IMG/VR virus record: IMGVR_UViG_3300010389_000107
Span: 1-26,453 of that record
DNA from: a virus
Strand: one strand, 5' to 3'
Length of the DNA: 26,453 nucleotides
The notes under the pieces are model-generated. The model was not told the origin of the DNA. It did not search any database and saw only the letters and a program-made list of their open reading frames with translations. The translations under genes were made by a program, and so were the position numbers. This document shows positions 1,832 through 24,116 of the stretch, in pieces (within the stretch, counting starts at the first letter, position 1; every line of letters begins with the position of its first letter).

Positions 1832-1844
1832 ATACTAAATAGTA
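1832..1844 (-). promoter_or_regulatory. Candidate phage late promoter upstream of the HNH gene
   Basis: The minus strand reads TACTATTTAGTAT. This is one of four near-identical intergenic sites in the window; the others lie upstream of the sheath, tube and tape-measure genes. It sits 17 bases before the HNH start codon, just ahead of an AAAGGAG ribosome site. Its inner part GATACTA-AA-TAGTATC is an inverted repeat. It differs from the T4 late box TATAAATA. That it is a promoter is inferred from recurrence and position only. Confidence 0.5.
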
Positions 1845-1870
1845 TCCCTCACATTTATTTGTGAGGGATA
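1843..1870 (-). other. Perfect 11-bp hairpin between nrdA and the HNH gene
   Basis: On the minus strand an 11-bp perfect stem (arms at 1860-1870 and 1843-1853; core CCCTCACA paired with TGTGAGGG) encloses a six-base loop. It begins about ten bases after the nrdA stop. A run of eight T lies before the hairpin in the direction of transcription, not after it, so it is not a standard intrinsic terminator. It could protect the 3' end of nrdA mRNA, act as a weak terminator or regulate translation of the HNH gene. It overlaps the edge of the candidate late promoter. Confidence 0.7.
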
Positions 1871-1880
1871 AAAAAAATAT

Positions 1881-3668
1881 TTATTCGCAAGCCAAACAGG
1901 TATTTCCGTCAATAAGTTCCTGAAAGTCTATTTCTTCTTCAATACGCTTTCTTTCGACTCTTTGAGATACACGATCTGCTTTTCTCAACTTATCACTGCG
2001 GCAATAGTATAGTCCTTTTAATCCGCTCTTCCAAGCTAGGAAGTGAATAGCGTGCAAGTATTTGATACCCACATCTGGTCTAAAGAATAAATTTACGCTT
2101 TGACCTTGATCTAAATACTTTTGTCTATCTCCCGCTAGTTCGATAATCCAGCGCTGGTCTAACTCTGTTGCCGTTTTAAATACGGCCTTTGTATACTCAT
2201 CAAGCCAGTCTAAGTGTTGAACTGAACCGTCGTTTGCGATAATAGAGGACCAAACCTCTTCAATATCTAACTTGTTCTCTTCACACTTCACTTCTAATAC
2301 TTTCTGTAAAAATCTATTCTTATAGACATGTGCTCCTGATAAGGTATCTTGACGATAAACATTAGCTCTATATGGCTCGATAGAAGGACTTGTATTGCCC
2401 ATTATAAGAGAAGTGGAGGCGTTTGGAGCAATTGCGGTTGTATGACTGAATCTTACTTTATAGCCATGCTTTCCTGCATCGGGACATGGACCCCTCTCTT
2501 CTGCTAATTCTATATTTGCTTCATCCATTTTTTCTTTGATATGGCGGAAGATACGCATATTAGCAGACTTGGCCATTGCACCTTCGAAAGCTATATTATT
2601 CTTTTGAAGATAAGCATGAAAACCTAATGCTCCCAATCCTACAGAACGCTCACGGTGAGCTGAATATTTAGCCCTTTGTATTTCAGTAGGAGCATTATCG
2701 ATAAAGTATGTTAGAACATTATCTAACATTTCTGCTACATCCCTAATAAATTGAGGATCATCTTTCCAATCATCGTAATATTCAAGGTTAAGAGAAGATA
2801 GACAGCAAACAGCAGTCCTATCTTGGTTAGTGGGAAGATGAATTTCGTTGCAAAGGTTAGAGCCATTGATTTTTAGTCCTTCCATTTTTAGCCACTCAGG
2901 TAAAGCATTATTGGCTGTATCAATAAAATTTAGATATGGTTCTCCGGTTTGCATTCTCATTTCAAGAATACGCTGCCAGAGTTCTTTTGCTGAAATAACT
3001 TCTTTTACTTCGCCAGTATGAGGGTCTACTAGTTCCCAATCGTCACTAGCTTTTGGATCAACCATGCAGCGTTCAATAATTTGCATAAAATCATCGCTGA
3101 TATTAATAGCGTGATGCAAATTGAGACAACGCATATTTTGATCGCCTGTTGGTTTACGAAGTTCAAGAAACTGAATAATGTCTGGGTGACTGATATCCAA
3201 GTATGTAGCATAAGAACCGCGACGAGTCTTTCCTTGACGATAAGCGAGAGAAGAAGCGTCATAAATTTTTAAGTGAGGCATTACCCCTGTTGATTTGTGG
3301 TCAGCAGAGCGAATACCTAAGTGAATACCTACACCACCACCAAGCATGGAAAGCCAGTTTGTTTCCGAAAGAGTATCTACCAAGCCATTAGCACTATCGT
3401 CCATATAATTCAAGAAACAACTGATCGGTAAACCATTCTTGGTGCGACCAAATGAAAGAATAGGAGTAGAATATGATAACCAGTGTTTAGAAGCATAATC
3501 ATATAATCTCTGTGCATGTTCTGGATTGCTTCCAAATTGCTTTGAAACAAAAGCAAATCTTTCCTGTGGAGAGTTTTCGGTATCTAACATGTATGATTCT
3601 CTTAGTCTCTTTCGACCAAGTTCATCAAAAAGGCTATCACGTTCTAGATCAATTTTTATCTCTGTCAT
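1881..3668 (-). CDS. nrdA: Ribonucleoside-diphosphate reductase class I, large (catalytic) subunit, without ATP-cone
   Basis: The alpha subunit of class I ribonucleotide reductase, which reduces NDPs with a cysteine radical chain. At 595 aa it is about 150 residues shorter than E. coli or T4 NrdA, and the missing part is the N-terminal ATP-cone that senses dATP. The catalytic core is complete: Cys84 in PISCFLNY, Asn271-Cys273-Glu275 in SNLCNEIHL, a partner Cys at 288 or 289 in VCCLSSLNL, the radical-transfer Tyr pair in GLYYCRSD near residue 560, and the C-terminal redox pair Cys591/Cys594 in CLACE. SYATYLDISHPDI and APNASTSLIMGNTSPSIEP are other family blocks. The gene begins ten bases after the helicase stop and is followed by the HNH gene and nrdB. 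Without the cone, the overall activity switch by dATP should be absent, which would suit a phage wanting unrestrained dNTP supply (inference). Confidence 0.97.
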   Translation of the reverse strand: MTEIKIDLERDSLFDELGRKRLRESYMLDTENSPQERFAFVSKQFGSNPEHAQRLYDYASKHWLSYSTPILSFGRTKNGLPISCFLNYMDDSANGLVDTLSETNWLSMLGGGVGIHLGIRSADHKSTGVMPHLKIYDASSLAYRQGKTRRGSYATYLDISHPDIIQFLELRKPTGDQNMRCLNLHHAINISDDFMQIIERCMVDPKASDDWELVDPHTGEVKEVISAKELWQRILEMRMQTGEPYLNFIDTANNALPEWLKMEGLKINGSNLCNEIHLPTNQDRTAVCCLSSLNLEYYDDWKDDPQFIRDVAEMLDNVLTYFIDNAPTEIQRAKYSAHRERSVGLGALGFHAYLQKNNIAFEGAMAKSANMRIFRHIKEKMDEANIELAEERGPCPDAGKHGYKVRFSHTTAIAPNASTSLIMGNTSPSIEPYRANVYRQDTLSGAHVYKNRFLQKVLEVKCEENKLDIEEVWSSIIANDGSVQHLDWLDEYTKAVFKTATELDQRWIIELAGDRQKYLDQGQSVNLFFRPDVGIKYLHAIHFLAWKSGLKGLYYCRSDKLRKADRVSQRVERKRIEEEIDFQELIDGNTCLACE

Positions 3669-3678
3669 ATTCTATTCC

Positions 3679-5103
3679 TCATGGTGAATCAGGCATTTTA
3701 CCTGAACTTTCTATGTTTTTTAATGTCGGAGGCTTCTTTTCTCTTTCTTTTTTATGGTCGCCATATTTCTCTTTCAGCTTTTTCTCTTGTTTCTTGGCTG
3801 CATTTGCCTCAATATCAGCCTTTGTCTCTCCAGTTGGTTCGAGAACCTTGATAGAAACAACAGAGGTATCCATCATAATAGGACAGATAACACCATCAGT
3901 TCCAAAACGATTCTTGGCTACAAAGATACGACCTGTGTTTGTTCTTTTATCGTCAATTGTTCTAGATACAGTGAAGATAAAGTCTGCTACGAAACATTTA
4001 TTAAAGGCTTCACTGATAGCTTCCATAGTAATGACCGGTTCGTTTAATCCACTACGATTTGTTTGTGACGCAGTGTAGCAAGGACAACCACTTTCTTTAG
4101 CGATTGCTCTTAGCTCTTCATAAATAGTTTCTAACTCTTCTCTTTTCTCTTTTCTTGTTGAAACAGGACGGAGCAAATCTCCATAATCCACAATAATCAT
4201 GCCAACATCAATACCCCGCTCCTTGATTTTGCTTAAATGATTACGCAAAGTCTCTGGTGATGCGCTCTTGGTTGGATATTCCTTAATAATCAGTTTACCT
4301 TTAACATCCTTAATTTGCTCAAAAACTTCATCTTTTCTCGCAAATAGCTCATCTAGCGGAATATTGGTAATAGCAGCATCGTATCGTCTCGCAATAGTCT
4401 TATCGTCTAGCTCCAGACTATAATGAACTACTGTCTTACCTTGTTTCACAGCTGCTGCACCAAGATGGCAGAGGACGTGTGTTTTGCCGGCTCCTGTTGG
4501 TGCTATAACGACTCCTAATTCACCATCGGCTAGACCACCACGAGTCATGCGGTCTATTACACTCCACCCAGTAGAGATAACATTACGGGTCTTTAATTCA
4601 TATCTTTCTTCAAATTGTTCGTCGTAAAGATAACCAACTTCTGGATTATTGCCTAGCTTCAAAGCATTGTCAACAAGAGAACGGATCTCTTCAAAAGAAG
4701 AAGACTTTAAAAGCTCAACGCTTTTAATCATAGCTTCTTTTAGCTTTTGCTTTTTACAGAATTCTATAGCATTAGACTTTACATAATCTACATCAACAGT
4801 ATTTCCACTTGTCGTAAATTGAGCGTAGAAGCTTCTTACTTGTTTCTGTAATGATTCATGTTCTTTGTTTAGATCTGTTCTAAGCAAAGATTCAAATGTT
4901 GTCTTGCTAGGATATTTCTTAAACTTATTTTTATAATCGTAAATCTTTTTTACAAATACTCGCAAGTATTTTAATTCAAAGAAGTTATAGTCCATAACTT
5001 CTCCGATTTGATTCGCAAACTGCGAATCCTCTAAAATTGTAAAAGCCAGTTTCTCTTGAAACGGCTTTCCAAATTCAGCAAAATTAACCTGTTCTTGATT
5101 CAT
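3679..5103 (-). CDS. Replicative DNA helicase, DnaB/T4 gp41-like (superfamily 4)
   Basis: A hexameric 5'-3' replicative helicase of 474 aa. Residues 1-160 form the helical N-terminal part. The RecA-like motor domain follows: Walker A APTGAGKT at 201-208, a conserved Glu after HYSLEL near 231, Walker B GMIIVDYGD at 301-309, the polar motif SQTNRSGL at 346-353, and the arginine-finger region KNRFG at 397-401. The last 40 residues are charged and probably disordered (KKEREKKPP), a likely docking tail. Its start overlaps the stop of the FEN nuclease gene upstream (ATGA), showing tight coupling. The family loads on the lagging-strand template and works with a primase; none is visible in this window or fused to this protein. 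T4 gp41 (475 aa) is nearly the same length. Confidence 0.93.
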   Translation of the reverse strand: MNQEQVNFAEFGKPFQEKLAFTILEDSQFANQIGEVMDYNFFELKYLRVFVKKIYDYKNKFKKYPSKTTFESLLRTDLNKEHESLQKQVRSFYAQFTTSGNTVDVDYVKSNAIEFCKKQKLKEAMIKSVELLKSSSFEEIRSLVDNALKLGNNPEVGYLYDEQFEERYELKTRNVISTGWSVIDRMTRGGLADGELGVVIAPTGAGKTHVLCHLGAAAVKQGKTVVHYSLELDDKTIARRYDAAITNIPLDELFARKDEVFEQIKDVKGKLIIKEYPTKSASPETLRNHLSKIKERGIDVGMIIVDYGDLLRPVSTRKEKREELETIYEELRAIAKESGCPCYTASQTNRSGLNEPVITMEAISEAFNKCFVADFIFTVSRTIDDKRTNTGRIFVAKNRFGTDGVICPIMMDTSVVSIKVLEPTGETKADIEANAAKKQEKKLKEKYGDHKKEREKKPPTLKNIESSGKMPDSP

Positions 5104-6068
5104 TTATTCTCCACCACTATTTTCTTAAATCTTGTATACATCTCTTCGAAGTTGGCTTGACCTGCTCCATCTGTTAATAACATTTTTTGTGTTTCAGTTA
5201 CATTAAGCTCATACTTGTAATCTTTAAGAGTTTGTCTTGTTTTTTGAGCTACTTGAACTGATATATTGGGAGAATACAACTGCATACCCCTGTAATTTCT
5301 ATGTATGAGATCTAAATTATCCAGCACATTTTGGAAGAACTTTGATTTTACGCCTTCCTGCTGTTTATTTAAGCAACAATCTTTCAAATCTTCAACAAAA
5401 TAGCTTTTGCTTTCTTTTAAGAAAGGGAAATTTTTACTAACTGTTTTTAGTCCTATACCGGCTACACCCTCGATATTATCGCTCTTATCTCCTGCCATAG
5501 CTCTAGCTAAAGCAAAATTATTTGGATGTATTCCGTATTCTTCCACTATACTCTTCCATGTTAAGATTTGATTCTGGATAGGTCTAAATAGTACCGTGGA
5601 TTCATTACAGAGTTGAATAAAATCTTTGTCTGAAGAAACGATTACTTTATTCCAATCTTTATATTTGCTGCACTGCGCCACAAAAGCTATAAGATCGTCT
5701 GCTTCTATTTCTGGCTCAAGAAACTGAATAACAGGAAAATTGTTTAAATACTCAGTCAAACGCAATTGTTGCCAAATTTTATTTTCTATTTCTTGATCGT
5801 CAGACAACATTTTGACATTTCTATTTAAACGAATAGGTTTCCTACCATCCTTATAATTTTCAATTATACTTTTCTTTTTTCTACTTCCACCTGGACCATC
5901 CCATACAATAATAACTTCATCAGGTTTTATCTCTCTTATATATTTTTGCAATGAACGCAAGTAACCTATCATTCCACCAATAGGCTGACCATTGGTAGAT
6001 GTAACAGGAGATACAACATAATTCCTGATAAACAAATTCAAACTATCTATAATCATCACTCTTTTCAT
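5100..6068 (-). CDS. FEN-family 5'-3' exonuclease / RNase H-like (T4 Rnh, PolA 5' nuclease type)
   Basis: A structure-specific 5' nuclease of 322 aa that removes RNA primers and flaps from Okazaki fragments. The carboxylate cluster of the family is present: Asp8 in MIIDSLNL, Asp57 in IIVWDGPG, Glu122-Asp124-Asp125 in EADDLIAF, Asp147 and Asp149 in SSDKDFIQ, and Asp194 and Asp197 in AGDKSDNI. A helix-hairpin-helix motif follows (GVAGIGLKTV, 201-210). The length matches T4 RNase H (305 aa) better than the nuclease domain fused to bacterial Pol I. The polymerase in this window has no 5' nuclease domain, so this gene should supply that activity. It overlaps the helicase start and follows the deaminase by a few bases. 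Confidence 0.93.
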   Translation of the reverse strand: MKRVMIIDSLNLFIRNYVVSPVTSTNGQPIGGMIGYLRSLQKYIREIKPDEVIIVWDGPGGSRKKKSIIENYKDGRKPIRLNRNVKMLSDDQEIENKIWQQLRLTEYLNNFPVIQFLEPEIEADDLIAFVAQCSKYKDWNKVIVSSDKDFIQLCNESTVLFRPIQNQILTWKSIVEEYGIHPNNFALARAMAGDKSDNIEGVAGIGLKTVSKNFPFLKESKSYFVEDLKDCCLNKQQEGVKSKFFQNVLDNLDLIHRNYRGMQLYSPNISVQVAQKTRQTLKDYKYELNVTETQKMLLTDGAGQANFEEMYTRFKKIVVENK

Positions 6069-6076
6069 ATAATCTC

Positions 6077-6569: not shown

Positions 6570-6588
6570 ACTTCGCCTCCTTAGTAAA

Positions 6589-6603: not shown

Positions 6604-6610
6604 GGAGATC

Positions 6611-6639: not shown

Positions 6640-6661
6640 GCGTTGGCTTAAAAATTATATC

Positions 6662-8729: not shown

Positions 8730-8744
8730 GCGACCCGAAGTTGA

Positions 8745-9554
8745 TCATACAGAATTCTGAACTATGTGAGTTGTGAACTCTATAAAACCATACTTATCTG
8801 TTTGATTTGATTCGAATATAGCAAATGTTTTTGCTGTCTCTTCTTCGTTATTTAAAATTTTATTTTTTATATTTTGTAATAATTTACCATCTTTTTTTAT
8901 ATCTTCTTTGGAAAAAGAAAAGTAAAATCTTTGCTTGGTTATATGATTCATGTTAAAAAATGGTTTATTACCATTTTCCATATCATATAAACCAATAGTG
9001 CAAATTCTGTCTATCTCATTTATATCTTCTTTTGTTTCGAATAAAGGTTTTGAATTTTTAAAATACATGATGCTATGAAAAGTATAGCAAAATAATTCAT
9101 TTAATTTTTGATAATACTGGTCTAGTGGTATATCATCTAATAGGGATTCAAGATTGGAATTATTAACTAAATAAACTTTCTCAAGTAGACCTGAACGAGC
9201 ATATTCTTGTAAGACATTGGTAACAATCTTTTGTTGTAGTTTTCCTGTAGAGGATAGCAAACTTTCATCTGTATTAAAACAGACAACACTTATTTTACTA
9301 CTCTTAATTTTTTCTAATACTCTAAGGGTTAAGCCAGATATATTACCTGAAGCAGAGAGAAAAACAAAAACATCCTCAGAAGTGCTGGATAATAGCTTGC
9401 CAAGACTGGGACAATTTTTTTCATATTCTTCTGGATTCTTTTGTTTTTTAACATTTATTCCTTCGTCTATCTCTAGAACTTTATATTGAGAATTTTTCCC
9501 TAATTCTCTTACCAGGCCACATCCAGTATTACCAATACCAATTAAACTAATCAT
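8745..9554 (-). CDS. Divergent tubulin/FtsZ-like protein
   Basis: A protein of 269 aa whose layout follows the FtsZ/tubulin GTPase fold. Residues 2-15 (ISLIGIGNTGCGLV) form a strand and glycine-rich turn like the first nucleotide loop. Residues 61-92 (strand, SASGNISG, helix, strand ISVVCFN) fall where the GGGTGSG loop and next helix and strand lie, but the loop is degraded. Residues 100-165 (long helix, then VYLVNNSNLESLL, then a helix) closely follow the FtsZ segment that reads VIPNDxLL. DINEIDRICTIG (177-188) sits at the T7-loop position, and a C-terminal domain with RFYFSFSKEDI follows. The gene overlaps the MazG-like gene and precedes ssb. Phage tubulins such as PhuZ position DNA or form filaments. 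With its weak G-loop this one may bind nucleotide poorly. The assignment comes from pattern only; a Rossmann-like protein of another family is the main alternative. Confidence 0.5.
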   Translation of the reverse strand: MISLIGIGNTGCGLVRELGKNSQYKVLEIDEGINVKKQKNPEEYEKNCPSLGKLLSSTSEDVFVFLSASGNISGLTLRVLEKIKSSKISVVCFNTDESLLSSTGKLQQKIVTNVLQEYARSGLLEKVYLVNNSNLESLLDDIPLDQYYQKLNELFCYTFHSIMYFKNSKPLFETKEDINEIDRICTIGLYDMENGNKPFFNMNHITKQRFYFSFSKEDIKKDGKLLQNIKNKILNNEEETAKTFAIFESNQTDKYGFIEFTTHIVQNSV

Positions 9555-9855: not shown

Positions 9856-11030
9856 TATAATTTCCTTAATTGTCCGTAGTCTTTACCTGCTGAAATATTA
9901 ACAGGAAATGTTCCTAATTTGGTTTTAGCAAAAGTAGAAAGTATAATATTAATTAGTTTTTTATCTTCTTTTGCAAGATCAATAACAACACTATCATGAA
10001 CTAAAAAGCTAATAAAACTCTTTTTATCTTTTAGTATTTTATTTATTTTTGATACTTGATCTAAAAATAATTCAGTAGTACTACTTTGTATTAAGTAATT
10101 TAAACTATGAAATTGATCTGATTCTATTTTTCTTCCATATAAACTAGTGATTATACGACCATCGTATTTTTGTTCCATCAATTTGTTAAGCCCAAAATAA
10201 TTTTCGTATTTTTTTGTATCAATTTTCTTGGAACCATACAACCAAGAAAATATTTCTTTCTTTGCTTCTTCTCTTGTAATTCCCAATCTCTCTGCATTCC
10301 ATTCATGGATATCGTTTTTTGGTTGCTCCTCTCCTGATAAGCCAAGTAGGACTCTCACTTCTGCTGCGTTGTAATCCAATTCAACAAAAAGATCGTTTGT
10401 TGGTTTGATTATTGAACGGTATTTACTATCCAAATTAAGAATAGGAAATGTCTTAGGATTAGTTGTAAGCCTTCCTGTCTTGGACCCAAACAAGTTGTAG
10501 CTTACATTGTGTTTGGCTTCTCCTAATCTATTTAAGAGAGTTCTAGCCCTATTATCGTGCCTGTTTTCGTTTAAGATCGACAAGTCAATATTGAGCTTTT
10601 TATTAGAGATAGAATTTAAGATTTTTTCTGTCTCTAATAACAAATTATAATTGACTGGTTTTTCGTTGTTTTCCAATACCCAATCAATTATCCTGGTTTT
10701 GATCTCGCACAACTCCAAAAGAAATTGTTCTGGAACGAGATCGAAAAAACAATTTTCATCCAAACTGACTTTTGCTGTGACAAACGATTTATGATAAGAA
10801 GATAATTTTTTTGTGTATTTCTCCCATTCCTCATTTAAATGTGGGGGGCAAACTTCACTCATGGTTTTACCGCCAACATACAATGAGGCATAGACCACAT
10901 TTCTATCACTCAAATACTCGGCATACTTCCAAGTTTTCGTTAGGTTTTCTGGTAGTTTGTCGTAATGGAGCTTGCCTTGGTGATAAATTCCTTTACACCA
11001 ATCTTTGTTATCAAGTGTTACAAAAGTCAA
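9855..11030 (-). CDS. Family A (Pol I-like) DNA polymerase, compact form without exonuclease domains
   Basis: The phage DNA polymerase, 391 aa, made almost only of the palm-fingers-thumb unit. SKTGRLTT (183-190) is the conserved TGRLSS block. Motif A is ELDYNAAEVRVLLG (217-230, Asp219 and Glu224). Motif B is REEAKKEIFSWLYG (253-266, Arg253, Lys257 or 258, Phe261, Tyr265). NYLIQSSTTELF (311-322) and motif C LVHDSVV (343-349) follow. Motif C reads His-Asp-Ser where most relatives have His-Asp-Glu; the metal-binding Asp346 is kept. The first 100 residues are not recognisable and there is no room for a 3'-5' proofreading or 5' nuclease domain. The start codon is TTG at 11030, five bases after GAGG; no in-frame ATG exists before residue 57. 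It begins eight bases after the end of the virion operon and heads the replication block. Confidence 0.92.
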   Translation of the reverse strand: MTFVTLDNKDWCKGIYHQGKLHYDKLPENLTKTWKYAEYLSDRNVVYASLYVGGKTMSEVCPPHLNEEWEKYTKKLSSYHKSFVTAKVSLDENCFFDLVPEQFLLELCEIKTRIIDWVLENNEKPVNYNLLLETEKILNSISNKKLNIDLSILNENRHDNRARTLLNRLGEAKHNVSYNLFGSKTGRLTTNPKTFPILNLDSKYRSIIKPTNDLFVELDYNAAEVRVLLGLSGEEQPKNDIHEWNAERLGITREEAKKEIFSWLYGSKKIDTKKYENYFGLNKLMEQKYDGRIITSLYGRKIESDQFHSLNYLIQSSTTELFLDQVSKINKILKDKKSFISFLVHDSVVIDLAKEDKKLINIILSTFAKTKLGTFPVNISAGKDYGQLRKL

Positions 11031-11038: not shown

Positions 11039-12442
11039 CTATAGCTTGAAGTTCGTGTTTTTTCTCTTAGAGATCTCCTTGTTGTTGATCTCTCCCTGAA
11101 GATACACCATCGCTGCGGAAATGTCAACCCTCTTGGCAAGATTACTGGTTTTTTCTACAATATCTAAAAACTTTCTCTGGGACCAATTACAATTAGCTTC
11201 TCTGCCTTTAATGAAAACATATAACTTTACCCAACTTTGCGTAATTTTTTCTTGAACAAATAAGTCTAAATTTATTACAGGTCTTTCATATATTTTTTTT
11301 ATTGTTGAAAATCTATTTTCATTTTTTTTAACTTCTAATTTTTCATAATATGGATCGTATTCTACAAAAGAATTATACATTTTTCCAATATATCTTTTTA
11401 AATCATAAAAATCATTATCATTAACAATATTATAGTAAAAAACACCACCAATACCATCTATAAGATTTTTAAATAAATCATAATCTTTTAATCTTTCTTT
11501 ACAATCTTCATAATTGTCTTCGCAATCAAAAAAATTTACTTCTTCGCTTAGTATTCCCTCTTCTACTAATCGCTTAACTCTTTGATTATAATAATATTTC
11601 ATTCTTGGAGAAGTCACATCTGCAATTAGTTGCCATGGGCAATCTTTATTTATAATAAATCCTCTTTCTTTTACATAATCCATATAGCAAGAAAAATAAT
11701 CATCATTTATAAATTTTTGAAATTTAAATTCATCATCATTAACATCTGCATCAAGAAGATCTATAACTAGTCCTGATGTTTTCGTTGGACAAGATCTGGA
11801 ATAAACAAAAGAGCTTTTTGTAAAGACTCGTGAAGGAGTAATCACATCGATAAAATCAGCAAATACTTTAATAAAAGTATCAACATCATATATATCTTTG
11901 CTTCTTTTATATATATCAATATAATCTAACAAATAACTATAATTTTGATCTGAATAAGACAAGTAAAGGGAACTAGTTTTTTCGACTCCTTTTTTAGGAG
12001 ACAGAGAATTTAATATACTGCCTTTTGGAACTCTATTCCTAACAATAAAAAGCTGTAAATCAAGTGAGAAATCTTCATAAGCATCAGCTACGAAATCTAA
12101 AACATAAACGGGATCTTCAGAAGTTCCTATATTAGATAAAATAGAATCTTTTGGATATATAGACATCAATTCGCTATTAACTCTACCGTAATGCTGGTGA
12201 TTCATAAAAAATGAATAGGGTTCTTTTTTATCTGTTGTTTCTAGTAACAAATTAGAAGAATTGGGAATATCTATAGCAGAAGGAACTGTCCCTCCAACAA
12301 ATTCTTCATATGCTTGGGTTTGATATATGTATTCTTGTATATATTTTTCTTTTGTTGAACTAGAAAATTTCTTTTTCGGGCCGGCCTCTATTAGTTCATC
12401 TGTTATAATTTTATCTCTTTTTGAAAAATCAAATTTTCTCAT
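11039..12442 (-). CDS. Putative virion-associated protein of unknown function (467 aa)
   Basis: Not firmly recognised. The protein is soluble-looking, rich in Tyr, Asp, Asn and Lys, and has no signal peptide or membrane segment. A mid-region block (residues about 200-300) with DVITPSRVFTKSSFVYSR and CPWQLIADVTSPRMKYYY has the look of a domain I associate with large-phage structural proteins of unknown role, but no database match is claimed. A second half with paired acidic and aromatic motifs (CEDNYEDCKERLKDYD, DGIGGVFYYN) follows. The ATG overlaps the stop of the 867-aa hub-like gene by one base (TAATG), so it is the last gene of the tail and baseplate block and is probably a baseplate or tail-tip component. 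A weak promoter candidate for the polymerase lies inside its 3' end. Confidence 0.6.
   Translation of the reverse strand: MRKFDFSKRDKIITDELIEAGPKKKFSSSTKEKYIQEYIYQTQAYEEFVGGTVPSAIDIPNSSNLLLETTDKKEPYSFFMNHQHYGRVNSELMSIYPKDSILSNIGTSEDPVYVLDFVADAYEDFSLDLQLFIVRNRVPKGSILNSLSPKKGVEKTSSLYLSYSDQNYSYLLDYIDIYKRSKDIYDVDTFIKVFADFIDVITPSRVFTKSSFVYSRSCPTKTSGLVIDLLDADVNDDEFKFQKFINDDYFSCYMDYVKERGFIINKDCPWQLIADVTSPRMKYYYNQRVKRLVEEGILSEEVNFFDCEDNYEDCKERLKDYDLFKNLIDGIGGVFYYNIVNDNDFYDLKRYIGKMYNSFVEYDPYYEKLEVKKNENRFSTIKKIYERPVINLDLFVQEKITQSWVKLYVFIKGREANCNWSQRKFLDIVEKTSNLAKRVDISAAMVYLQGEINNKEISKRKNTNFKL
11099..11127 (-). promoter_or_regulatory. Possible sigma70 promoter for the polymerase operon
   Basis: The minus strand holds a perfect TTGACA (11122-11127), a 17-base spacer and TATCTT (11099-11104, four of six -10 matches), about 65 bases before the polymerase TTG start. 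It lies inside the coding sequence of the preceding late gene. An early promoter is expected here because the polymerase block should not wait for late transcription. Chance occurrence in coding DNA cannot be excluded. Confidence 0.35.
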
Positions 12443-16009: not shown

Positions 16010-18712
16010 TTAAAGAGTATTTTTCAATTCTGTTGTTCGTGGAGGCACTCTTATCTCTTCTCGTTCTTTTTGTTCCATATAATAAGCCGCACCATTATAA
16101 ATAAGAGTTCCTAATTCTGCTCCGTCTATATTAACTGGACCTTCCAGACGAAGCTGTATTGTTTGAGGTTGAGCGTTTGCTATTGGCATAGATCTCTCTA
16201 CAGTATTTGTTTCTTTTTCTACTCTAATTGTTTCTATAATTTCTCTTTGTGTTGTAGAAATTTCAGTCATTATTTCTTTTATCTCACTACCAAATTCCAA
16301 AGGAGTCCCTGTAGCTGCACTAGTAGCAACAGATAATCCCGCTGTTATGTCAGCAGAAACATTTGCTAAATTACTTAATTCTTTTAGATATTCTAGTTTG
16401 TTGTCTGGCAGATTTTTTAACTCTTCTCCTATCTTGCGAAGTCCACTAGCAAAAGAGTCAAGTTTAGAAGCGTTTAATTCAATAGAACTTAACTGTCCCA
16501 ATAAGGAAGCTTTTGTTTTTAATAATTCATTTTCTTGCTTTGTTCGTTCAGCAACAGCAGTGGCCACGAGAGCTATGGCGCCGCCAATTAATAAAATACC
16601 AGCCCCAAAAGCCATTAAGCCTAAGCCTGCTGCAGCCAATGCTTTGGAAGCAAATGCTAAGACAGCTGCGGCAATTACTATTCCTGCCGTCAATGCTACA
16701 ATAGAATCTCTTGCGTATTGTGCATTTTTGCCAGCTTTGGCAAAAGCTTCCACAAGAGGAACGAAACCCAATGACGCTATTGCCATCGCAGCCCCTACAG
16801 CCAAAATAGCAACAGCTAATACTCCTAATGTTTGAGCAAAACTTAAAGTAGAAGCACTGGCTGCAGCTGGTGGAACTGGCAGAGGTTTCCCAGTAGCTAA
16901 TGCTGCTTGTTGTGCTTTTATTGCTTCTATATTTCTCCATCTTGCTGCTGTATCTGCATCCAATGTTCTAGAAGCCAGTGTTGACTGGGTAACTTCTTTT
17001 CCTCTTGCTATTGCTAGTAAAGTAGAAAAAGTTGTGTAAGCTGTTCTTAATTTTGCTACTGCAACAACAGCAAATATAAAGAAAGTAGCTAATTGAAATA
17101 CTCCACTAGCAAGAATTCCAATAATATTATTTGAACTTGAAGCTGCTTCAAACAAATAAGCGAATCCTTCAATTATTGTTATTAAAAATTGTACTAATGG
17201 ACTAGACATTATTTTTTGAAATGCTATTTCTAGTCTTTTGAAGGCATCAGCAGATTTGGCTGCGAGTTCTGCGAGTTCCTGTTGTGTTTTCGCATTATGT
17301 TCCATTTCAGAAGTTGCTTCTCCGAGACTCATATTAAAAAGTCTTTGAGCCTCTGTCACTTCCATGCCAAATATAGAAGCAATATGTCTTTGCATTGCTG
17401 GTCCTAATTCATCGAAACTTTTACCCGAAGCATCCATAGCGGTCTTTAGTTGTTCAAAGACTTCTATAGGATTTGTCATCGCAGCATTTAACAAGCCCAT
17501 AGAACTAACAAGGTTTTTTCCTAATACAGCATTTAGTTCTCCTGCCATTTTTGAGGCGCCTTCAAATGTAGTTAATTGTTCTGTAACTTGCACAAGTTTA
17601 CCTATATCAATTGCTAAGTTTTTGGCCGCTAAACTTAAACTTTCAAAAGCTCTCTGGTATCCTTCTTTACCGAAAGCTGCTAGTTTTGTTCCAACTGCTC
17701 CTATGTTTTTATCCAATGTTGTCATTGGAATATTTGCTCTTTTAGAAAAGCTTTCTAAGCTTCTTAAGGCTTCCTGACCTTGTTGATTTGTAAATCCAAG
17801 ACCTTTTGTCAGAACTTCAAACATTTGAATTTGATTAGATACAGTTATTCCTAATCTTTCTAATGTATTAACCACTTTAGTTAATTCGATTTGCTCTTGT
17901 TCTGTTAAATCTATAAATTGAGACATTCCTGTGGTAAGTTCTTTAACGGTATTTCCAACATCGGTCATAGAAACGCCACCAAGGGCCTCTGAGGCTTCTA
18001 AAGCAACAACGGATAGATCTGTTGTCCCTGTTTGTAATTTATTTAATTCTGCTCTCATTTGAGATAAAGCTTTAACATTAGCCATAAACGCAGCATATAG
18101 TCTTGTTGCAGCGCCTGTAACCATTTCGACACTTTTTGCTCTTAAAATAATTAAAGCTTGTTCTTTAGTTATATTTTCTTCTAAGTCTTTTACTATTTCT
18201 GCTTGTTTTAATCTCATTCCTTCTAAGAGATTAAATTGTTGTCCCATTGGACCAAGCAAATCACTTGAAGCCTTTAGTCTTTGAAGTTCACTACCAGTAA
18301 AAAGTTTACTATTGCTTAATAGTCGTTGAGACATGCCCAGCTGTTCTCTTATACTTTTTTCTATATCTTGTTTAATCGAAAGTTCTCTAGCAGACAATTC
18401 CTCTACGGTAGAATTCCATAAAGCTATCAATTCCATAGAATCAACTTGCTCTTCGTTTAAATCATTGAGCTGAGAGGCATAGGTTCCAAGAGCCTCCATT
18501 CTTTCTTTTATCTGATCAAGACTGCCTGTCCAACCTTCCCATGGCGTACTTGTTTGTTTTATTTGTTTATAGAGAGTCTCCATTAGTTTTATAAGTTCAT
18601 CAGTTGCATAACCTGCCTTTTCTGCTTGCTTGACAATTTCAGAAAGAGCAGCTTGCTTTTCTTCCAAGCTAGATGTATCTAATGGGTCCTTTGGATCTGT
18701 TGGTTCTGCCAT
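16010..18712 (-). CDS. Tail tape measure protein
   Basis: The tape measure sets tail length, fills the tube and helps DNA cross the cell envelope. At 900 aa it is the longest mainly helical protein in the window. Residues 1-480 are rich in Glu, Lys, Gln and Ala with heptad-like patterning, consistent with coiled coils. Three hydrophobic regions follow, near residues 505-555 (LITIIEGFAYLF and FFIFAVVAVAKL), 624-660 (LGVLAVAILAVGAAMAI) and 672-720 (GIVIAAAVLAFASKAL, LLIGGAIALVATAV). A further helical segment and a polar end close the protein. The order tube, frameshifted chaperone, tape measure is the canonical one for long-tailed phages. It has its own candidate late promoter (18738-18750) and a GAGG ribosome site. 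If tail length scales as in other phages (about 0.15 nm per residue), 900 residues would imply a tail near 130 nm (inference). Confidence 0.93.
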   Translation of the reverse strand: MAEPTDPKDPLDTSSLEEKQAALSEIVKQAEKAGYATDELIKLMETLYKQIKQTSTPWEGWTGSLDQIKERMEALGTYASQLNDLNEEQVDSMELIALWNSTVEELSARELSIKQDIEKSIREQLGMSQRLLSNSKLFTGSELQRLKASSDLLGPMGQQFNLLEGMRLKQAEIVKDLEENITKEQALIILRAKSVEMVTGAATRLYAAFMANVKALSQMRAELNKLQTGTTDLSVVALEASEALGGVSMTDVGNTVKELTTGMSQFIDLTEQEQIELTKVVNTLERLGITVSNQIQMFEVLTKGLGFTNQQGQEALRSLESFSKRANIPMTTLDKNIGAVGTKLAAFGKEGYQRAFESLSLAAKNLAIDIGKLVQVTEQLTTFEGASKMAGELNAVLGKNLVSSMGLLNAAMTNPIEVFEQLKTAMDASGKSFDELGPAMQRHIASIFGMEVTEAQRLFNMSLGEATSEMEHNAKTQQELAELAAKSADAFKRLEIAFQKIMSSPLVQFLITIIEGFAYLFEAASSSNNIIGILASGVFQLATFFIFAVVAVAKLRTAYTTFSTLLAIARGKEVTQSTLASRTLDADTAARWRNIEAIKAQQAALATGKPLPVPPAAASASTLSFAQTLGVLAVAILAVGAAMAIASLGFVPLVEAFAKAGKNAQYARDSIVALTAGIVIAAAVLAFASKALAAAGLGLMAFGAGILLIGGAIALVATAVAERTKQENELLKTKASLLGQLSSIELNASKLDSFASGLRKIGEELKNLPDNKLEYLKELSNLANVSADITAGLSVATSAATGTPLEFGSEIKEIMTEISTTQREIIETIRVEKETNTVERSMPIANAQPQTIQLRLEGPVNIDGAELGTLIYNGAAYYMEQKEREEIRVPPRTTELKNTL

Positions 18713-18737
18713 TTAGCGGTATTCCTCGCAAGATATA

Positions 18738-18750
18738 ATACTAATTAGTG
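18738..18750 (-). promoter_or_regulatory. Candidate phage late promoter upstream of the tape measure gene
   Basis: The minus strand reads CACTAATTAGTAT, a member of the shared motif [TC]ACTA[TA]TTA[CG]TAT also found upstream of the sheath, tube and HNH genes. It sits just after the terminator at 18757-18782 and 25 bases before the tape measure ATG, so it could restart transcription after that stop. The TTATAT right after the motif could also act as a -10-like box. Confidence 0.5.
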
Positions 18751-18756
18751 AATAAG

Positions 18757-18782
18757 AAAAAAAGCAGAATTTCTCCTGCTTT
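18757..18782 (-). terminator. Intrinsic terminator between the tail chaperone and the tape measure
   Basis: On the minus strand the 9-bp stem AAAGCAGGA / TTCTGCTTT (one G-T wobble) carries a GAAA tetraloop and is followed by more T residues (18757-18760) and a T-rich tail. It begins within the stop codon of the frameshift extension ORF. Both the GNRA loop and the T-run suit an efficient terminator, probably a partial one that lowers tape measure message relative to tube and sheath. Confidence 0.85.
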
Positions 18783-18981: not shown

Positions 18982-19792
18982 TCAGCGGTACCTCCAATCC
19001 TTCTTCGTGGCCACAATTTTCACAAGAGAAATCTTGCTCCATATCTACTTCTGGAGTTAAATCTTTGATTACATTTCTTAAAGCTCTTGCGTCACTTGCT
19101 ATCATATTATCACTTACTTGTTTTATTGATTGAGGATCATACATACCGTTAACTGAAACAATACAAGTTTTCAATTGTCCTGTAGATACATTGTCTATTT
19201 CTTTTTTGCTGATTACTTGTTTAGCTATTTTAGATTCATCAGCAGAAGTCATCAAACGAAACTCTACACTTACTCCTAATCGTGGAAGAGTAAAAAGAAA
19301 AGTTCCGTGTTGTGTTTGTGTTACAGAAGAAGGGACTTCCTTTTCTTCTATTTCTTTCGACATTATGTTTGATAAATCGAATTCTTGTTTTTGTTTTGCT
19401 TCACAAGCTGGACATGTTACTTGAACGCTATAATCTGCTCCATAAGCAGATATCCTTGAAGCTAAGAGAACAGCATTCTTATCACCTACTAATAAATCGT
19501 CCACTTTAAGACCTGGATCTATTAATAAGCTTTGAAGCATTTTGTCTATTGCCACCCCCTTTCTTAATAGAGATTTGTTTGTAAGAATATCTTCTTCTTT
19601 TGCTGTCATGAATTTTATTTCTATTTCTTCTTTTCCGTGAAGAGGGTGTCCTGGTTGATAGAATTTACCTTTTGATGGCAATTCTACTATTTCTGTTGGA
19701 GTGACAAAATTTAATTTATTATCACCTGATTGCATAGCAGAAGTCTGATCCTCCTGTATAGGAGGTCCAAATCTTTCTTCGTTGTTTCTCAT
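18956..19792 (-). CDS. Tail assembly chaperone / baseplate hub assembly protein, T4 gp26-like, with zinc ribbon
   Basis: A 278-aa protein of the family annotated as gp26 (baseplate hub subunit) in T4-like phages. Family blocks: VELPSKGKFY (36-45), HPLHGKEEIEIKFMTAKEED (49-68) and ILTNKSLLRKGVAIDKMLQ (69-87). Two Cys pairs, Cys127-x2-Cys130 and Cys257-x2-Cys260, would form a zinc ribbon; the second is close to the C-terminus. The stop follows AEFFWPK, immediately after the seven-T run used by the proposed frameshift, so this would be the short, abundant form and the extended protein the rare one. In lambda the short form (G) and the long form (GT) together bind the tape measure and recruit tube protein; I infer the same here. 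The gene starts 15 bases after the second tube-like gene and is co-transcribed with it. Confidence 0.85.
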   Translation of the reverse strand: MRNNEERFGPPIQEDQTSAMQSGDNKLNFVTPTEIVELPSKGKFYQPGHPLHGKEEIEIKFMTAKEEDILTNKSLLRKGVAIDKMLQSLLIDPGLKVDDLLVGDKNAVLLASRISAYGADYSVQVTCPACEAKQKQEFDLSNIMSKEIEEKEVPSSVTQTQHGTFLFTLPRLGVSVEFRLMTSADESKIAKQVISKKEIDNVSTGQLKTCIVSVNGMYDPQSIKQVSDNMIASDARALRNVIKDLTPEVDMEQDFSCENCGHEEGLEVPLTAEFFWPK

Positions 19793-19807
19793 ATTTTATC
19801 CTTTCTT

Positions 19808-20578
19808 TTATGAGCTTGAAGGCCTTCTTGTTGGCGATGTTCCAGGAAGAGCTGAACCTTTAGTTGTAGATTGTTGTCTACTACTTGCATCTTCTCGTGA
19901 TTCACCATGGGTAATTGAACCATGTATTCCTGATAGTTTAGTTATATAAGAGCCTTGGAGCGGGTTAGTAGGTTCGGCAGAACTACTGATTTGTTTAACA
20001 TTTGGCTTATCAGGTGCAGCATTTAATATTTTTTCTGATTCAGGAGATACAAGATATTCATAATTATCGTAAACAATTGTCATAGTATATGTAGCTAATC
20101 CAGTATCAGTATAATTTAGAGGACTATATTTAACATCAGAGATCCAACCGTTATAAAGAACATATTGTTCTATCACATTTCCTAATTCATTTAACATGGA
20201 AATTTCTATATTTTTTGTTTTATCTGTTAGGGTTCTGCTTGTAGTATTTCCTATTTCTGAATATTTACTAAAATTCAAGCCTGCCAATTTATAGTAATAA
20301 TGAATCCAATTAGAAACAGTATTTTGCTCATCGTCTATACAAACTATCTCTATTGGGCGTAATTCTAGAGGACCCTTTTTATATTTTGGAGTTCCTAAAT
20401 CGCTTATTGATTCAACCGTAAAACCAAAGTTAGGTTTTTGAGCGCTTATGACATATTGAGGAGGAATATGAGTTAATAAATTATCAAAAAGCACCTTCCA
20501 GCGGAAAGTGCGTTTTGGTTCAAATCTTCTCTCTTCCCAGAAGAACCCTGTGTTAGGAGTTTTATGATTCTCCGTCAT
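19808..20578 (-). CDS. Second tail-tube-like protein with a disordered C-terminal extension
   Basis: A 256-aa paralogue of the tube gene just upstream. Both proteins share a start with FWEERRFEPKRTFRWKV here and FWNKPETLDPKRAFRWKV in the tube protein, and both have the central LRPIEIVCIDD or DPVTVTLVDS strand and a matching late block (EQYVLYNGWISDVKYSPLNY versus EEWTLHNAWIKSVKPSELSY). Residues 1-190 therefore carry the tube fold. The last 65 residues are rich in Ser, Thr, Pro and Gly and look unfolded (SSRQQSTTKGSALPG). It could be a special ring at the tube end (terminator or initiator side) or a minor tube component. It follows the tube by 14 bases and precedes the gp26-like chaperone, with no promoter motif of its own. 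Confidence 0.8.
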   Translation of the reverse strand: MTENHKTPNTGFFWEERRFEPKRTFRWKVLFDNLLTHIPPQYVISAQKPNFGFTVESISDLGTPKYKKGPLELRPIEIVCIDDEQNTVSNWIHYYYKLAGLNFSKYSEIGNTTSRTLTDKTKNIEISMLNELGNVIEQYVLYNGWISDVKYSPLNYTDTGLATYTMTIVYDNYEYLVSPESEKILNAAPDKPNVKQISSSAEPTNPLQGSYITKLSGIHGSITHGESREDASSRQQSTTKGSALPGTSPTRRPSSS

Positions 20579-20592
20579 TCAATATCCTTATT

Positions 20593-21171
20593 TTAAGCAT
20601 CAGATGGAGCAGTTGCACCAGCAGCTTGTGCCCAATCAAATCTTAATTCAATATCATAAGTGGAAAGATCCTCTGTATCATAAGATAATTCTGATGGTTT
20701 AACAGACTTAATCCAAGCATTGTGTAAAGTCCACTCTTCTATTGTTAGACCATCTACATCTAATTGCTGAATCAAAACTTTGCCAGAATTTCCAGTAGCA
20801 CCTGAGAGGCGTCCTTTGCTAATAGTTTTCATCGAACCAGCATTTAAAGGACCCTGTGCTTCTGGAATAGCGCCTGTTTGAATTGTTTCATAATTTCCAG
20901 CGTTGATGGCAGAAACAACCTTGCTCATCAATGCACCATCACGACTATCTACCAAAGTAACTGTTACAGGATCCCATTTTACATGACCAGGAAAATAATA
21001 GCTTTTATTTAAAAACTTATGTTCTGCTTCTTCAACAGTAAATTGAGGTTTTGTTACTTTTTTAGCCAAAAATGCTACATCAGTTCCTACAGCAGTACCA
21101 TCTAGTAGTGTTACTTTCCATCTAAAAGCTCTTTTTGGGTCTAATGTTTCTGGCTTATTCCAAAATGTCAT
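20593..21171 (-). CDS. Major tail tube protein, T4 gp19-like
   Basis: The 192-aa subunit of the inner tail tube, close to the 163 aa of T4 gp19 with some extra loop. Recognisable blocks are PKRAFRWKVTL (12-22), a strand-rich middle with KWDPVTVTLVDS near 63-75, and the final EEWTLHNAWIKSVKPSELSY followed by YDIELRFDWA. These give the beta-barrel with a long hairpin that stacks hexameric rings. It sits between the sheath and the second tube-like gene, the standard order for contractile tails, and has its own candidate late promoter (21202-21214) and an AGGAG ribosome site, as expected for a protein needed in over a hundred copies. Confidence 0.9.
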   Translation of the reverse strand: MTFWNKPETLDPKRAFRWKVTLLDGTAVGTDVAFLAKKVTKPQFTVEEAEHKFLNKSYYFPGHVKWDPVTVTLVDSRDGALMSKVVSAINAGNYETIQTGAIPEAQGPLNAGSMKTISKGRLSGATGNSGKVLIQQLDVDGLTIEEWTLHNAWIKSVKPSELSYDTEDLSTYDIELRFDWAQAAGATAPSDA

Positions 21172-21201
21172 CTTATTTGTTCTCCTGTAATAGTTACTTT
21201 A

Positions 21202-21214
21202 TAGTAAATAGTGT
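21202..21214 (-). promoter_or_regulatory. Candidate phage late promoter upstream of the tail tube gene
   Basis: The minus strand reads CACTATTTACTAT in the 54-base gap between sheath and tube genes. It matches the sheath-gene copy at 12 of 13 positions and is followed by A/T-rich DNA and an AGGAG site. A short dyad TTACT-ATAA-AGTAA overlaps its downstream end. Confidence 0.55.
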
Positions 21215-21225
21215 CCTTTTTTTAT

Positions 21226-24060
21226 TTATGCATCGTCAAATGAAGCACCGGTATTGGTGATTACAAAGTCGATGCCGATAAATTCAATGGCGTATACTGG
21301 CTTGATAAATAATTTAGCATACATCATGTTTCTATCGATTTCTTCTGGTGTTGTAGTGGTTTCATCCAATACTACACGATAATCACTGATGCCAAGTCTG
21401 TTCTTGACACTTTCCAACAATTCAGTTGTTGGGGTGGTGAATCTACGCCAAGTCTCTTGAACATTTGGATCAAAGAGGACACCAGCGGCGATTCGACTGA
21501 TTTCTTTCTTCAAGAAAATAACCAATCTTCTTACGTTGATTCTGTCAAGAGCAGATGGGAAAGCTTGTAGGGTCTTTTGACCAAAGATTACAATACCTTC
21601 ACTTGGGAAAGAAGCAATTGGGTTAATACCAACATCGTATAGAGCATCACGTTGCTTGGAAGTAACTTTATCTTTTACTCCTACAACATTTAGACCAGAA
21701 GAGCCTTCGGACAATCCACCACGATTAAAGCCTGCTGGAGCAAACCATACTTCACTGGTTTCTTGGCTGGAAGCCATTGTGCCGAAAGCAGCAACAGAAG
21801 GTGGAACCCATAGTTTAGAGCCGCTTCTTCCATCTCTTATTTGCACCCATGGATAGTAAGCACAAGCATAGCTGCTATTTAAATCTCTATCTTTAATTGC
21901 TGAGACAACTGCTGAAACTCTACCCATTCTTTCTTTTTCGGTTTCTGTGTTTTCTGTATCTGGCACATAACCACTTTCAACATCAATGATAGCAAGACAA
22001 TCAGCTCTTTCGTCACAGGTTTTAATCATTTGTTCTGTTAATATTTTCTCTGTAATACCTGGAACTACCATAATATTCATATCAATAACTTCTGGATCTT
22101 TAACAGAGGTAATTGCTCTCTTGATTGAATAATAAGCGTAATTGTTATCTTCAGTTGCGCCATCCAATAAGGTATTTCTAAACGGCTCTCTTTCAGTGAT
22201 ATCAAGACCATCAAAACCACCAAATAGAGGCATTGTGAACTTATTGAATCCAGCATCTAGAGCAGCGCCAAAGTTATCAGTAGCAGATTTTGAAATACCA
22301 GCCTTTCTGTTTCCAGCAACATAAACGCCGCCATTAGCACTTGAACTTACATCGTCTAGGGTAAATGCTACACTGTTTTCTAAATATGTTCCATCAGCAT
22401 CATAAGAATTAAAAGCTGAAGGTTTAACTTTCAAAATATCTCTTAGTGATTCATTGAATGGCTGTCCTACATCTAATCCAAAGAAAGCATCTGCTGGATC
22501 TAGGAAGCCTGCATCAGAAGCACTTACTACTAAAGGTAAGCTTGGGAAGGAAATGCTTGCCGATAGAGCAAGGGTAGTTCCTGGAATAATTTTATCACTT
22601 ACAGCTTGATTTGGAGTGGCATTGAGAGCATTAACAATTGAGCTAGCTGTTTGTGAATCGCCCGCTGAATCACTGATACCTTCAAAAGTAAATGTCTTGA
22701 ATCTTGGTGGACCGATGAATCCTGCTGGTAATACTCCTTCTGGTAAACTCTTTGCTGTTGGGTGCATTTCTACACGAATAATTTTTGAATTATTTTCAAA
22801 ATCGCCAACTTCGATATATCTTCCTTCACCGTCAACAGCTTCAGACCATTCAACTCTTCTGTCGCCAATACGAGCAGCAATATAGTTTGGAGAAGCAGGG
22901 TCTAAATTCAAATTAGAGAAAACTTCAACGAACTCTGGTGATTTGTCGCTATCGTTTATATTGCGAATACCAACAGAGAAGGTGCCGTATTTCTGATATT
23001 TATTAGAAGGTGCTTTGATATCGAAAATAGAAATCTTGTAATTTAATTGTTCAAATTCGCTACCTTCACCTTCACCTGCTACGATGCGGAAAAGTTTTCT
23101 TGAATCAGTTGCAGGATCAAAGCTGCTAGTATCAGCACTTAAATGTTGAGAAATCACCCAACCAGACTTAGCTGGCTGTGCAGCTTGTCTGAATTTGCCA
23201 GCATAATTGCTACCTGAAGCTAGAGGTGTGATAAAAGCATAGCAGCCTCCTGCAGATTTGGCGCCTGCTGGTAATACTTTATCTAGAGAATCTTCAAAAG
23301 TTTCTCCCAACCAATAAGTTTGTAGGCCGCTATCAGTAGTATAAATTGAATCATTTACAAGAGTAGGGTTTGTATTAAATGATTTTCTAATAAATTTATC
23401 CGAGGATTTGTTAAAGTTAAATGTTACTAGTTCTTTTTGAGCATTACTTTTATCGACAATTCTTGCTTTGAATTCATAATCGGTACCCTTTGTTTCTACA
23501 AAAACATTAACGCCGGCGCCGCTTGCAACGGCAGTTCCGTCATCTCTATCGCCAATTAATTCAACAACACCTTCGTCTACATAAAATACAGCAGCTAATG
23601 TTCCTGTGGTTGGAGTCGCATCTTGTGTTGAACTTGAAGCTACGAGGAATAAACCATAAGCGCCGCCATTTAAAGTTCTGGTATCGTCTAAAGTCCCGCT
23701 TGTTTGCCAGCCTGCTGCACCGGCAGCAGTAGGAGAGCCTGGTTCAACGCCACCTAATCTTAGAAATGTTAAGGGTGAAGAACTAGCTAACCAAGCTTGA
23801 GCAGCATAAGCGCCATAAGTTGGGCCGGTATCATTTCCGTTTCTCCAAATATCACTTGAACCTAATCCTGCACTTGGTTCACCGAATTTTTGTACGAACT
23901 CTTCATAAGTATCTACTGTTACAGGAACCATAGTTGGACCTTTGATAGAACGACCAACAACTAAAGGACCAACTTGTCCTGGTAGTGATGGTAATCTTGA
24001 TCTATCGATCTCGTTAATTTTTACTCCTGGTGATACAAAACGGAATTTTTTTGCTGCCAT
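21226..24060 (-). CDS. Tail sheath protein, T4 gp18-like, enlarged
   Basis: The contractile sheath subunit. The first 60 residues are diagnostic: FVSPGVKINEIDRSRLPS, then GPLVVGRSIKGPTMVPV and VDTYEEFVQKFGEP. The last 200 residues are too, with WVPPSVAAFG, the block NRGGL, INPIASFPSEGIVIFGQKTL, the segment NVRRLVIFLKKEI and a final strand IEFIGIDFVIT. These N- and C-terminal arms join neighbouring subunits. At 944 aa the protein is nearly 300 residues longer than T4 gp18 (659). The extra length lies in the middle (about 120-640), which is Ser, Gly and Asn-rich and beta-like, so it likely forms added domains on the outer surface of the tail. A candidate late promoter and a GAGGAG ribosome site precede it. 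Confidence 0.96.
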   Translation of the reverse strand: MAAKKFRFVSPGVKINEIDRSRLPSLPGQVGPLVVGRSIKGPTMVPVTVDTYEEFVQKFGEPSAGLGSSDIWRNGNDTGPTYGAYAAQAWLASSSPLTFLRLGGVEPGSPTAAGAAGWQTSGTLDDTRTLNGGAYGLFLVASSSTQDATPTTGTLAAVFYVDEGVVELIGDRDDGTAVASGAGVNVFVETKGTDYEFKARIVDKSNAQKELVTFNFNKSSDKFIRKSFNTNPTLVNDSIYTTDSGLQTYWLGETFEDSLDKVLPAGAKSAGGCYAFITPLASGSNYAGKFRQAAQPAKSGWVISQHLSADTSSFDPATDSRKLFRIVAGEGEGSEFEQLNYKISIFDIKAPSNKYQKYGTFSVGIRNINDSDKSPEFVEVFSNLNLDPASPNYIAARIGDRRVEWSEAVDGEGRYIEVGDFENNSKIIRVEMHPTAKSLPEGVLPAGFIGPPRFKTFTFEGISDSAGDSQTASSIVNALNATPNQAVSDKIIPGTTLALSASISFPSLPLVVSASDAGFLDPADAFFGLDVGQPFNESLRDILKVKPSAFNSYDADGTYLENSVAFTLDDVSSSANGGVYVAGNRKAGISKSATDNFGAALDAGFNKFTMPLFGGFDGLDITEREPFRNTLLDGATEDNNYAYYSIKRAITSVKDPEVIDMNIMVVPGITEKILTEQMIKTCDERADCLAIIDVESGYVPDTENTETEKERMGRVSAVVSAIKDRDLNSSYACAYYPWVQIRDGRSGSKLWVPPSVAAFGTMASSQETSEVWFAPAGFNRGGLSEGSSGLNVVGVKDKVTSKQRDALYDVGINPIASFPSEGIVIFGQKTLQAFPSALDRINVRRLVIFLKKEISRIAAGVLFDPNVQETWRRFTTPTTELLESVKNRLGISDYRVVLDETTTTPEEIDRNMMYAKLFIKPVYAIEFIGIDFVITNTGASFDDA

Positions 24061-24103
24061 TATCTTATTCTCCTCAAAATGGATTAAACTATACTAGTTT
24101 TCT

Positions 24104-24116
24104 ATAGTAAATAGTA
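24104..24116 (-). promoter_or_regulatory. Candidate phage late promoter upstream of the tail sheath gene
   Basis: The minus strand reads TACTATTTACTAT, about 45 bases before the sheath ATG in a 97-base gap. It is one of four copies of the shared motif. Downstream the leader can pair ACTATA with TATAGT and AAACTA with TAGTTT, small dyads that could affect the message 5' end. No sigma70-like pair was seen in this gap. Confidence 0.55.

Follow-up and report, generated by a model that had tools for sequence, protein, structure and literature searches.

A probable late promoter box of uncultured T4-related myophages and its candidate gp55-like sigma factor

We analysed a virus record of 26,453 bases (IMGVR_UViG_3300010389_000107, probably a fragment; its full length is referred to here as the window), in which four intergenic minus-strand sites upstream of tail-sheath, tail-tube, tape-measure and HNH endonuclease genes carry copies of one short motif. 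We consider it very likely that this motif, the box ACTANTTA, serves many uncultured T4-related myophages, which form a large group, as a late promoter box of the -10 type, and that it is read by a gp55-like sigma factor. The motif, its strand, the class of gene that it precedes, its start-site signature, the presence of the sigma gene in relatives and a hairpin at one of the sites were all established by computation. From these we infer recognition of the box by gp55, late timing, the exact starts and action on the host polymerase. In the mechanism that we propose, the host RNA polymerase together with the phage gp55-like sigma would recognise ACTANTTA at about -13 to -6, and transcription would start some six bases downstream of the box, usually at a purine. 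Late units would carry boxes of their own, in many cases right after the terminator that ends the preceding unit. The four window boxes would drive the sheath, tube, tape-measure and HNH endonuclease genes, and the HNH box would act as a timing device in which only RNA started there escapes a hairpin at the ribosome site. If correct, this allows the late genes to be mapped in a common group of T4-related phages that are uncultured, in which the search for gp55 alone retrieves 241 stretches from viral contigs.

A directional box upstream of virion genes

Across 1,022 upstream regions from 20 related records, ACTANTTA was found in 237 on the sense strand and in 26 on the antisense strand. At its N position the box favours T over A, followed by C or G, and the separate counts were 139 sense versus 5 antisense for ACTATTTA, 61 versus 10 for ACTAATTA, 25 versus 6 for ACTACTTA and 14 versus 5 for ACTAGTTA. 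There is a low level of tolerance at -13 (T, 20 sense and 6 antisense; C, 11 and 1; G, 6 and 0), and at the six positions other than -13 and -9 a base change almost abolished the strand bias, leaving similar or low counts on both strands. Because of these strand counts and this base-change table we conclude that the functional unit is an 8-bp box with a defined direction, and that the palindrome is incidental, a chance product of the window flanks. A preliminary description of the window had called the motif near-palindromic, which holds for the window copies and fails for the class as a whole, given its strong strand specificity and orthologous sheath sites that read ACTATTTATTA and similar. 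Ahead of the sheath gene in relatives (43-63% protein identity), what has been conserved is ACTATTTA, or in a few cases ACTAATTA, and the bases after it vary. The exact 13-mer of the window was also considered as the conserved unit and rejected, because YACTAWTTASTAT occurs in just 10 of 117 loci of relatives, four of them around the query sites. In 14 records the density of ACTATTTA was 1.114 per kb in noncoding sense DNA, 0.058 in noncoding antisense DNA and 0.042 in coding sense DNA.

The box was also recovered by an unguided ranking of 8-mers upstream of genes. Genes were simple longest open reading frame calls, some of them spurious (e.g. one at window position 26151 on the plus strand), and upstream regions shorter than 25 nucleotides were excluded. 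We used strand-controlled word counts since a position-weight matrix fitted by expectation maximisation drifted to A+T-rich columns in several genomes and was discarded. The word ACTATTTA ranked first in G001 (12 observed versus 0.5 expected), G007 (9 versus 0.59), G009 (8 versus 0.44) and G010 (7 versus 0.40), and the top word in G002, CTATTTAT, is a one-base shift of it; from the 15 upstream regions of G003 the box was not recovered de novo. For G003 and G008, for genomes chosen by gp55 and for three control phages, 8-mers containing AGGA or GGAG were removed before ranking. With this procedure ACTATTTA was strongly enriched in G008 (8 sense, 0 antisense), and among six complete-size genomes chosen solely for a gp55-like gene it was the top word in four, with ACTAATTA leading in G016 and CTATTTAT in G024. 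These six were the ones analysed whole out of twelve gp55 records; the other six were taken as 15-kb pieces around gp23. The method detects known late promoters, because in the positive controls T4, S-CAM1 and Melnitz-3 the same procedure returned TATAAATA or its shift. Other regular words came up alongside. Beside its late box G008 has very regular early-type signals, CTTGACAA (13 sense, 0 antisense) and TGAGATAA words (9 and 0). In G024 a GGGGCTAGCCCC-like palindrome lies upstream of 10-12 genes and in many intergenic places on both strands, as a repeated element, and in G019 words around TGTCCTACCCA occur upstream of up to 10 genes in the sense direction only, perhaps as another promoter or operator class.

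We then tallied the box over orthologous genes, defined by reciprocal best hits to G017 together with PHROG names (74 clusters of at least seven members). In the virion module 69 of 133 upstream regions carried it, as against 1 of 71 in the replication module, whereas sigma70-like sites (TTGAC-N-TAnnnT) showed the opposite distribution, at 10 of 133 and 29 of 71, respectively. It is the size of this contrast that matters, since the Fisher p value of 1e-15 is overstated by the kinship of the orthologs and by module borders that were set after the table had been inspected. The preliminary description had held that absence of the motif before other late genes such as the capsid would speak against a late class, and at the head of the capsid operon, in front of the gene just upstream of gp23, the box was present in 12 of 12 genomes. 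It preceded the sheath gene in 13/14, the tube gene in 9/13, the tape-measure gene in 5/5 (those with a spacer) and a head-tail-adaptor-like gene in 9/11, and it was found before none of the replication-module genes for SSB (0/12), UvsX (0/8), helicase (0/7) and GroEL (0/8). In G017 the last of these genes, at 32752-34320, encodes a GroEL-like chaperonin that 11 of 14 records share.

Most boxes are found 17-60 bases ahead of the start codon. A profile of 216 sites, from which sites less than 17 nucleotides from the start codon had been excluded, shows a purine in 75% at +1, six positions past the last base of the box, and a G in 38%, more than at any other leader position. The box and this purine/G peak match the spacing in T4, where the box occupies -13 to -6 and the start lies about six bases on. 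By a strict test a terminator adjoined the box upstream at 40 of the 216 sites. In sum, the late promoter class proposed in the preliminary description draws support from strand-specific enrichment, from placement before virion and not replication genes, from the capsid operon and from the gp55-like sigma of large relatives.

A candidate sigma factor and its relation to known late promoters

A search of IMG/VR with the gp55-like protein of G001 found the 241 stretches encoding a relative that are mentioned above, of which the best 80 were kept. Among 25 aligned gp55 proteins of the group, 23 matched phrog_234 at E<=0.01, and weak matches to Pfam Sigma70_r2 were obtained in 6 (best E 0.025). 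In the structural model residues 38-140 match sigma region 2 (4lup, Z 9.1, root-mean-square deviation 2.9, 93 aligned residues), and sigma folds top the structure comparison. T4 gp55 likewise has a domain homologous to region 2, according to the available text of PMC7892883. Beyond what T4 gp55 has, the group protein carries at its C terminus some 68 extra residues that the model folds into a domain with a helix-turn-helix (predicted local distance difference test score 92.4), for which the best structural row was sigma-H (Z 5.6, root-mean-square deviation 1.9, 54 aligned), tied with other helix-turn-helix and unrelated chains. A region-4 identity of this domain is no more than a possibility. 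Foldseek returned no match at E<=0.001 for either the gp55 model or that of its C-terminal domain, a sequence search of the PDB with the gp55 alignment gave none, and phrog_12791 is uninformative because it had zero matches anywhere, controls included. The homologs of Microcystis phage Mel-JY01 and Flavobacterium phage immuto align over the same extended length, and those of T4, S-CAM1 and Melnitz-3 are without the extra domain in the alignment. A profile of the group proteins scored immuto and Mel-JY01 strongly, S-CAM1 (2.6e-4) and Melnitz-3 (1e-3) weakly and T4 gp55 poorly (E 1.2). Their co-occurrence with the box, together with the precedent of T4, suggests that the group gp55 proteins read ACTANTTA.

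Similar to the group, T4 has a late promoter made of one 8-bp box, TATAAATA, at -13 to -6 (register as given in the available text of PMC1524935), placed before late genes and served by a gp55-type sigma, and T-11, A-10, T-7 and A-6 are common to both boxes. The group differs by C at -12, a free base at -9 and T at -8, by a possible weak upstream element, by its longer gp55 and in that no T4 clamp was found. In the preliminary description the motif was stated not to be the T4 late box; this is right in that the group does not follow the TATAAATA consensus, yet the shared register and four bases make the two related. TATAAATA is not sense-enriched in the group (20 sense, 52 antisense), and since ACTANTTA stands at 237 versus 26 we assign the box to a variant class and not to the TATAAATA class. 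Variants are known elsewhere. As far as the accessible portions of PMC2988020 and PMC1524935 go, T4 has A at -13 at nine sites, and A-13 and C-12 variants are reported in T4 and Aeromonas phage Aeh1; the latter source gives the Aeh1 late promoter as CTAAATA from -12, with a or g at -13. In Aeh1, as in the group, C replaces A at -12; unlike the group it keeps A at -9 and -8, and ACTAAATA is not enriched in the group (3 sense, 9 antisense). Neither T at -8 nor a free -9 is among the variants in the portions of these two papers that were available. In the literature searched, which was mostly at title and abstract level with subscription journals largely absent, there was no description of this late box. 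We would class it as a divergent T4-type late promoter whose C at -12 is already known from Aeh1, and which would work like T4 late promoters and very probably descends from them.

By their sheath and helicase, Mel-JY01 and immuto belong to the closest named relatives. They share the extended gp55 and have a late-type NATATTTA with T at -8, which carries A and not C at -12, and in immuto host-like TTG-N-TATATTTAGG promoters are mixed into the signal. At about 60-76 kb in immuto, successive genes have TTG-N-TATATTTAGGTAT promoters, separate from the GATATTTA before its sheath gene, and we take the former to be much like host-type Bacteroidota promoters. The series TATAAATA, NATATTTA and ACTANTTA illustrates a shift in the specificity of gp55-type promoters.

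Upstream of the box, G at -33/-32 (0.36, 0.41) and T at -28/-27 are overrepresented in 73 hairpin-free sites, to a degree reached in 0 of 5,000 permutations. We rejected terminators as the source of these columns since they persist in hairpin-free sites, where the GG pair alone is not clearly enriched (13/76 versus 5, 12 and 2 at control offsets). G at -33 was present in 45% of 22 sites of Mel-JY01 and in 3/7 of immuto, and 58 sites from T4, S-CAM1 and Melnitz-3 did not show the G(-33/-32) signal. A strong TTG element accompanying TATATTTA in immuto was dropped as evidence for a second element, as those sites resemble host-type promoters. Considering that terminators are often at that spot and that the Mel-JY01 sample is small, the base composition is only suggestive of G(-33/-32) being a weak second promoter element.

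The T4 clamp (PF02916, PF09116) was found in 0 of 8 group genomes and in the T4 control, although a diverged clamp could escape such a search, and the bacterial beta clamp (PF00712) was found in 0 of 10 records. No sliding clamp recognisable as of T4 or bacterial type was seen in complete-size G001, G007, G015-G017, G019, G021 and G024. In T4, as described in the part of PMC7892883 that could be consulted, gp33 grips the flap in the manner of region 4, to which it is structurally unrelated. We entertain as a speculative and rather doubtful possibility that late promoters of the group have two elements, G(-33/-32) and ACTANTTA, and that the gp55 reading them carries a fused region-4-like domain that replaces gp33, so that a T4-type clamp would be unneeded and late transcription would be uncoupled from replication, with the NATATTTA boxes of Mel-JY01 and immuto as steps on the path. 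The group thereby makes it testable whether late transcription of the T4 type can run on a self-contained sigma in the absence of gp45.

Alternative readings of the box

Several of our observations weigh against a gp55-read late promoter. phrog_234 finds gp55 in only 2 of 8 records (G001, E 2.7e-9; G007, 9e-4), gp55 was not found in the partial records G002, G003, G008, G009 and G010, and, as regards the sigma factor that the preliminary description would seek elsewhere in the genome, large relatives carry the gene and the 26-kb window fragment does not. A gp55 homolog is present in all eight group records longer than 160 kb that were examined, six of which had been selected for having it. Some virion genes have no box of their own (hub 1/11; gp23 0/5, operon-internal and behind a boxed gene), some non-virion genes have one (an ATPase family, 3/9), and 76 sense copies of ACTATTTA lie within coding DNA in the 14 records.

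The five partial records without gp55, and the weak phrog_234 score of G007, would suit a box read by another factor, be it an alternative sigma of the host or an activator from the phage bound at -13 to -6 that aids the sigma70 polymerase. We judge this improbable, since the spacing from the box to the purine at +1 fits the -10 box of a sigma factor and not an upstream activator, the sigma70-like sites form a separate set mostly before replication genes, and all of the large records, despite the selection of most of them, have the homolog. Still less credible, to a degree that we consider it very unlikely, is an RNA-level leader element such as a processing or translation signal: the box does lie in leaders near start codons and at the HNH gene belongs to a hairpin, but its distance from the start codon varies widely, it is often behind terminators, it is absent from replication genes that bear leaders, and the RNA fold is unremarkable at three of the four sites in the window. 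As for chance matches in A+T-rich intergenic DNA, which an A+T-rich motif in a window of 34% G+C might invite, the strand control (237:26) and the table of single-base changes refute them, and the box is enriched at 40-46% G+C as well and not enriched in T4, S-CAM1 and Melnitz-3; we give this explanation almost no weight.

The four window sites and the HNH hairpin

The content of the window is T4-like, with nrdA, nrdB, helicase, UvsX, SSB and a short PolA followed by tail genes. All four minus-strand sites of the preliminary description exist, with the third starting at 21201 and not 21202, and gene positions bear out that they lie 5' of the genes for the HNH endonuclease, tape measure, tube and sheath. 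The sheath gene (21226..24060, minus strand, phrog_23) is preceded by ACTATTTA at 24108..24115 within the 13-mer 24104-24116, a site conserved in relatives. The first tail-tube gene (20593..21171, minus strand, phrog_4542) has ACTATTTA at 21205..21212 (13-mer 21201-21213), and the tape-measure gene (16010..18712, minus strand, phrog_167) has ACTAATTA at 18742..18749 (13-mer 18738-18750), just behind an intrinsic-terminator-like hairpin and T run in the sequence and RNA fold at 18761..18782 on the same strand. The HNH homing endonuclease gene, between nrdA and nrdB (1077..1814, minus strand, phrog_655, E 5e-40), has ACTATTTA at 1836..1843 (13-mer 1832-1844). All four boxes are on the minus strand, and T4 spacing would put their starts at G24102, A21199, A18736 and A1830, respectively. 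In the window the motif gave 5 matches with at most one mismatch, the fifth being the other strand of the first site, against a mean of 0.72 in shuffled sequence, and 0 of 100 shuffles reached 5. The earlier remark that no copy this good lies in genes is correct for the 13-mer and incorrect for the true 8-bp core, copies of which are intragenic on the minus strand at 4121-4128 and 5585-5592 (ACTATTTA), 9950-9957 (ACTAATTA) and 11764-11771 (ACTAGTTA).

At the HNH gene a predicted RNA structure (1819..1879, minus strand) contains the late box and pairs the ribosome-binding site in read-through, early RNA. Folding of this nrdA read-through RNA gave -20.5 kcal/mol, with z scores of -3.8 (80 nucleotides) and -4.4 (75 nucleotides), and the leader expected from a late start (1830-1806) came out unstructured. 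Because the late box lies inside the hairpin, a late start would drop its 5' arm. A similar arrangement is described in the available text of PMC2988022 for T4 I-TevI and segB and for Aeh1 mobE, where early RNA folds into a hairpin that masks the ribosome site and late RNA is without this hairpin. The window gene resembles these in its hidden ribosome site and in a late promoter that is predicted to be placed so that late RNA escapes the hairpin, and differs from them in that its late box is ACTATTTA and that it lies between nrdA and nrdB. Such a timing device would explain why a mobile endonuclease shares its motif with virion genes, and the arrangement supports late timing independently.

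Two endonuclease genes of G001 have a predicted sequestration like that of the window HNH gene. In a ranking of 192 late-box leaders by how far the ribosome site pairs with RNA from upstream of the start, the window HNH gene and these two stand at 24, 21 and 9. Most others of the top 25 are not known endonucleases, and the hairpin pattern is not exclusive to endonucleases. The first rank belongs to an HNH gene within the replication module of G017 (19051-19692), which has a late box and a near-complete predicted sequestration of its ribosome site. Elsewhere in the window, positions 8745-9554 encode a protein of 269 residues that is without a PHROG match and is conserved in 12 of 14 clustered records.

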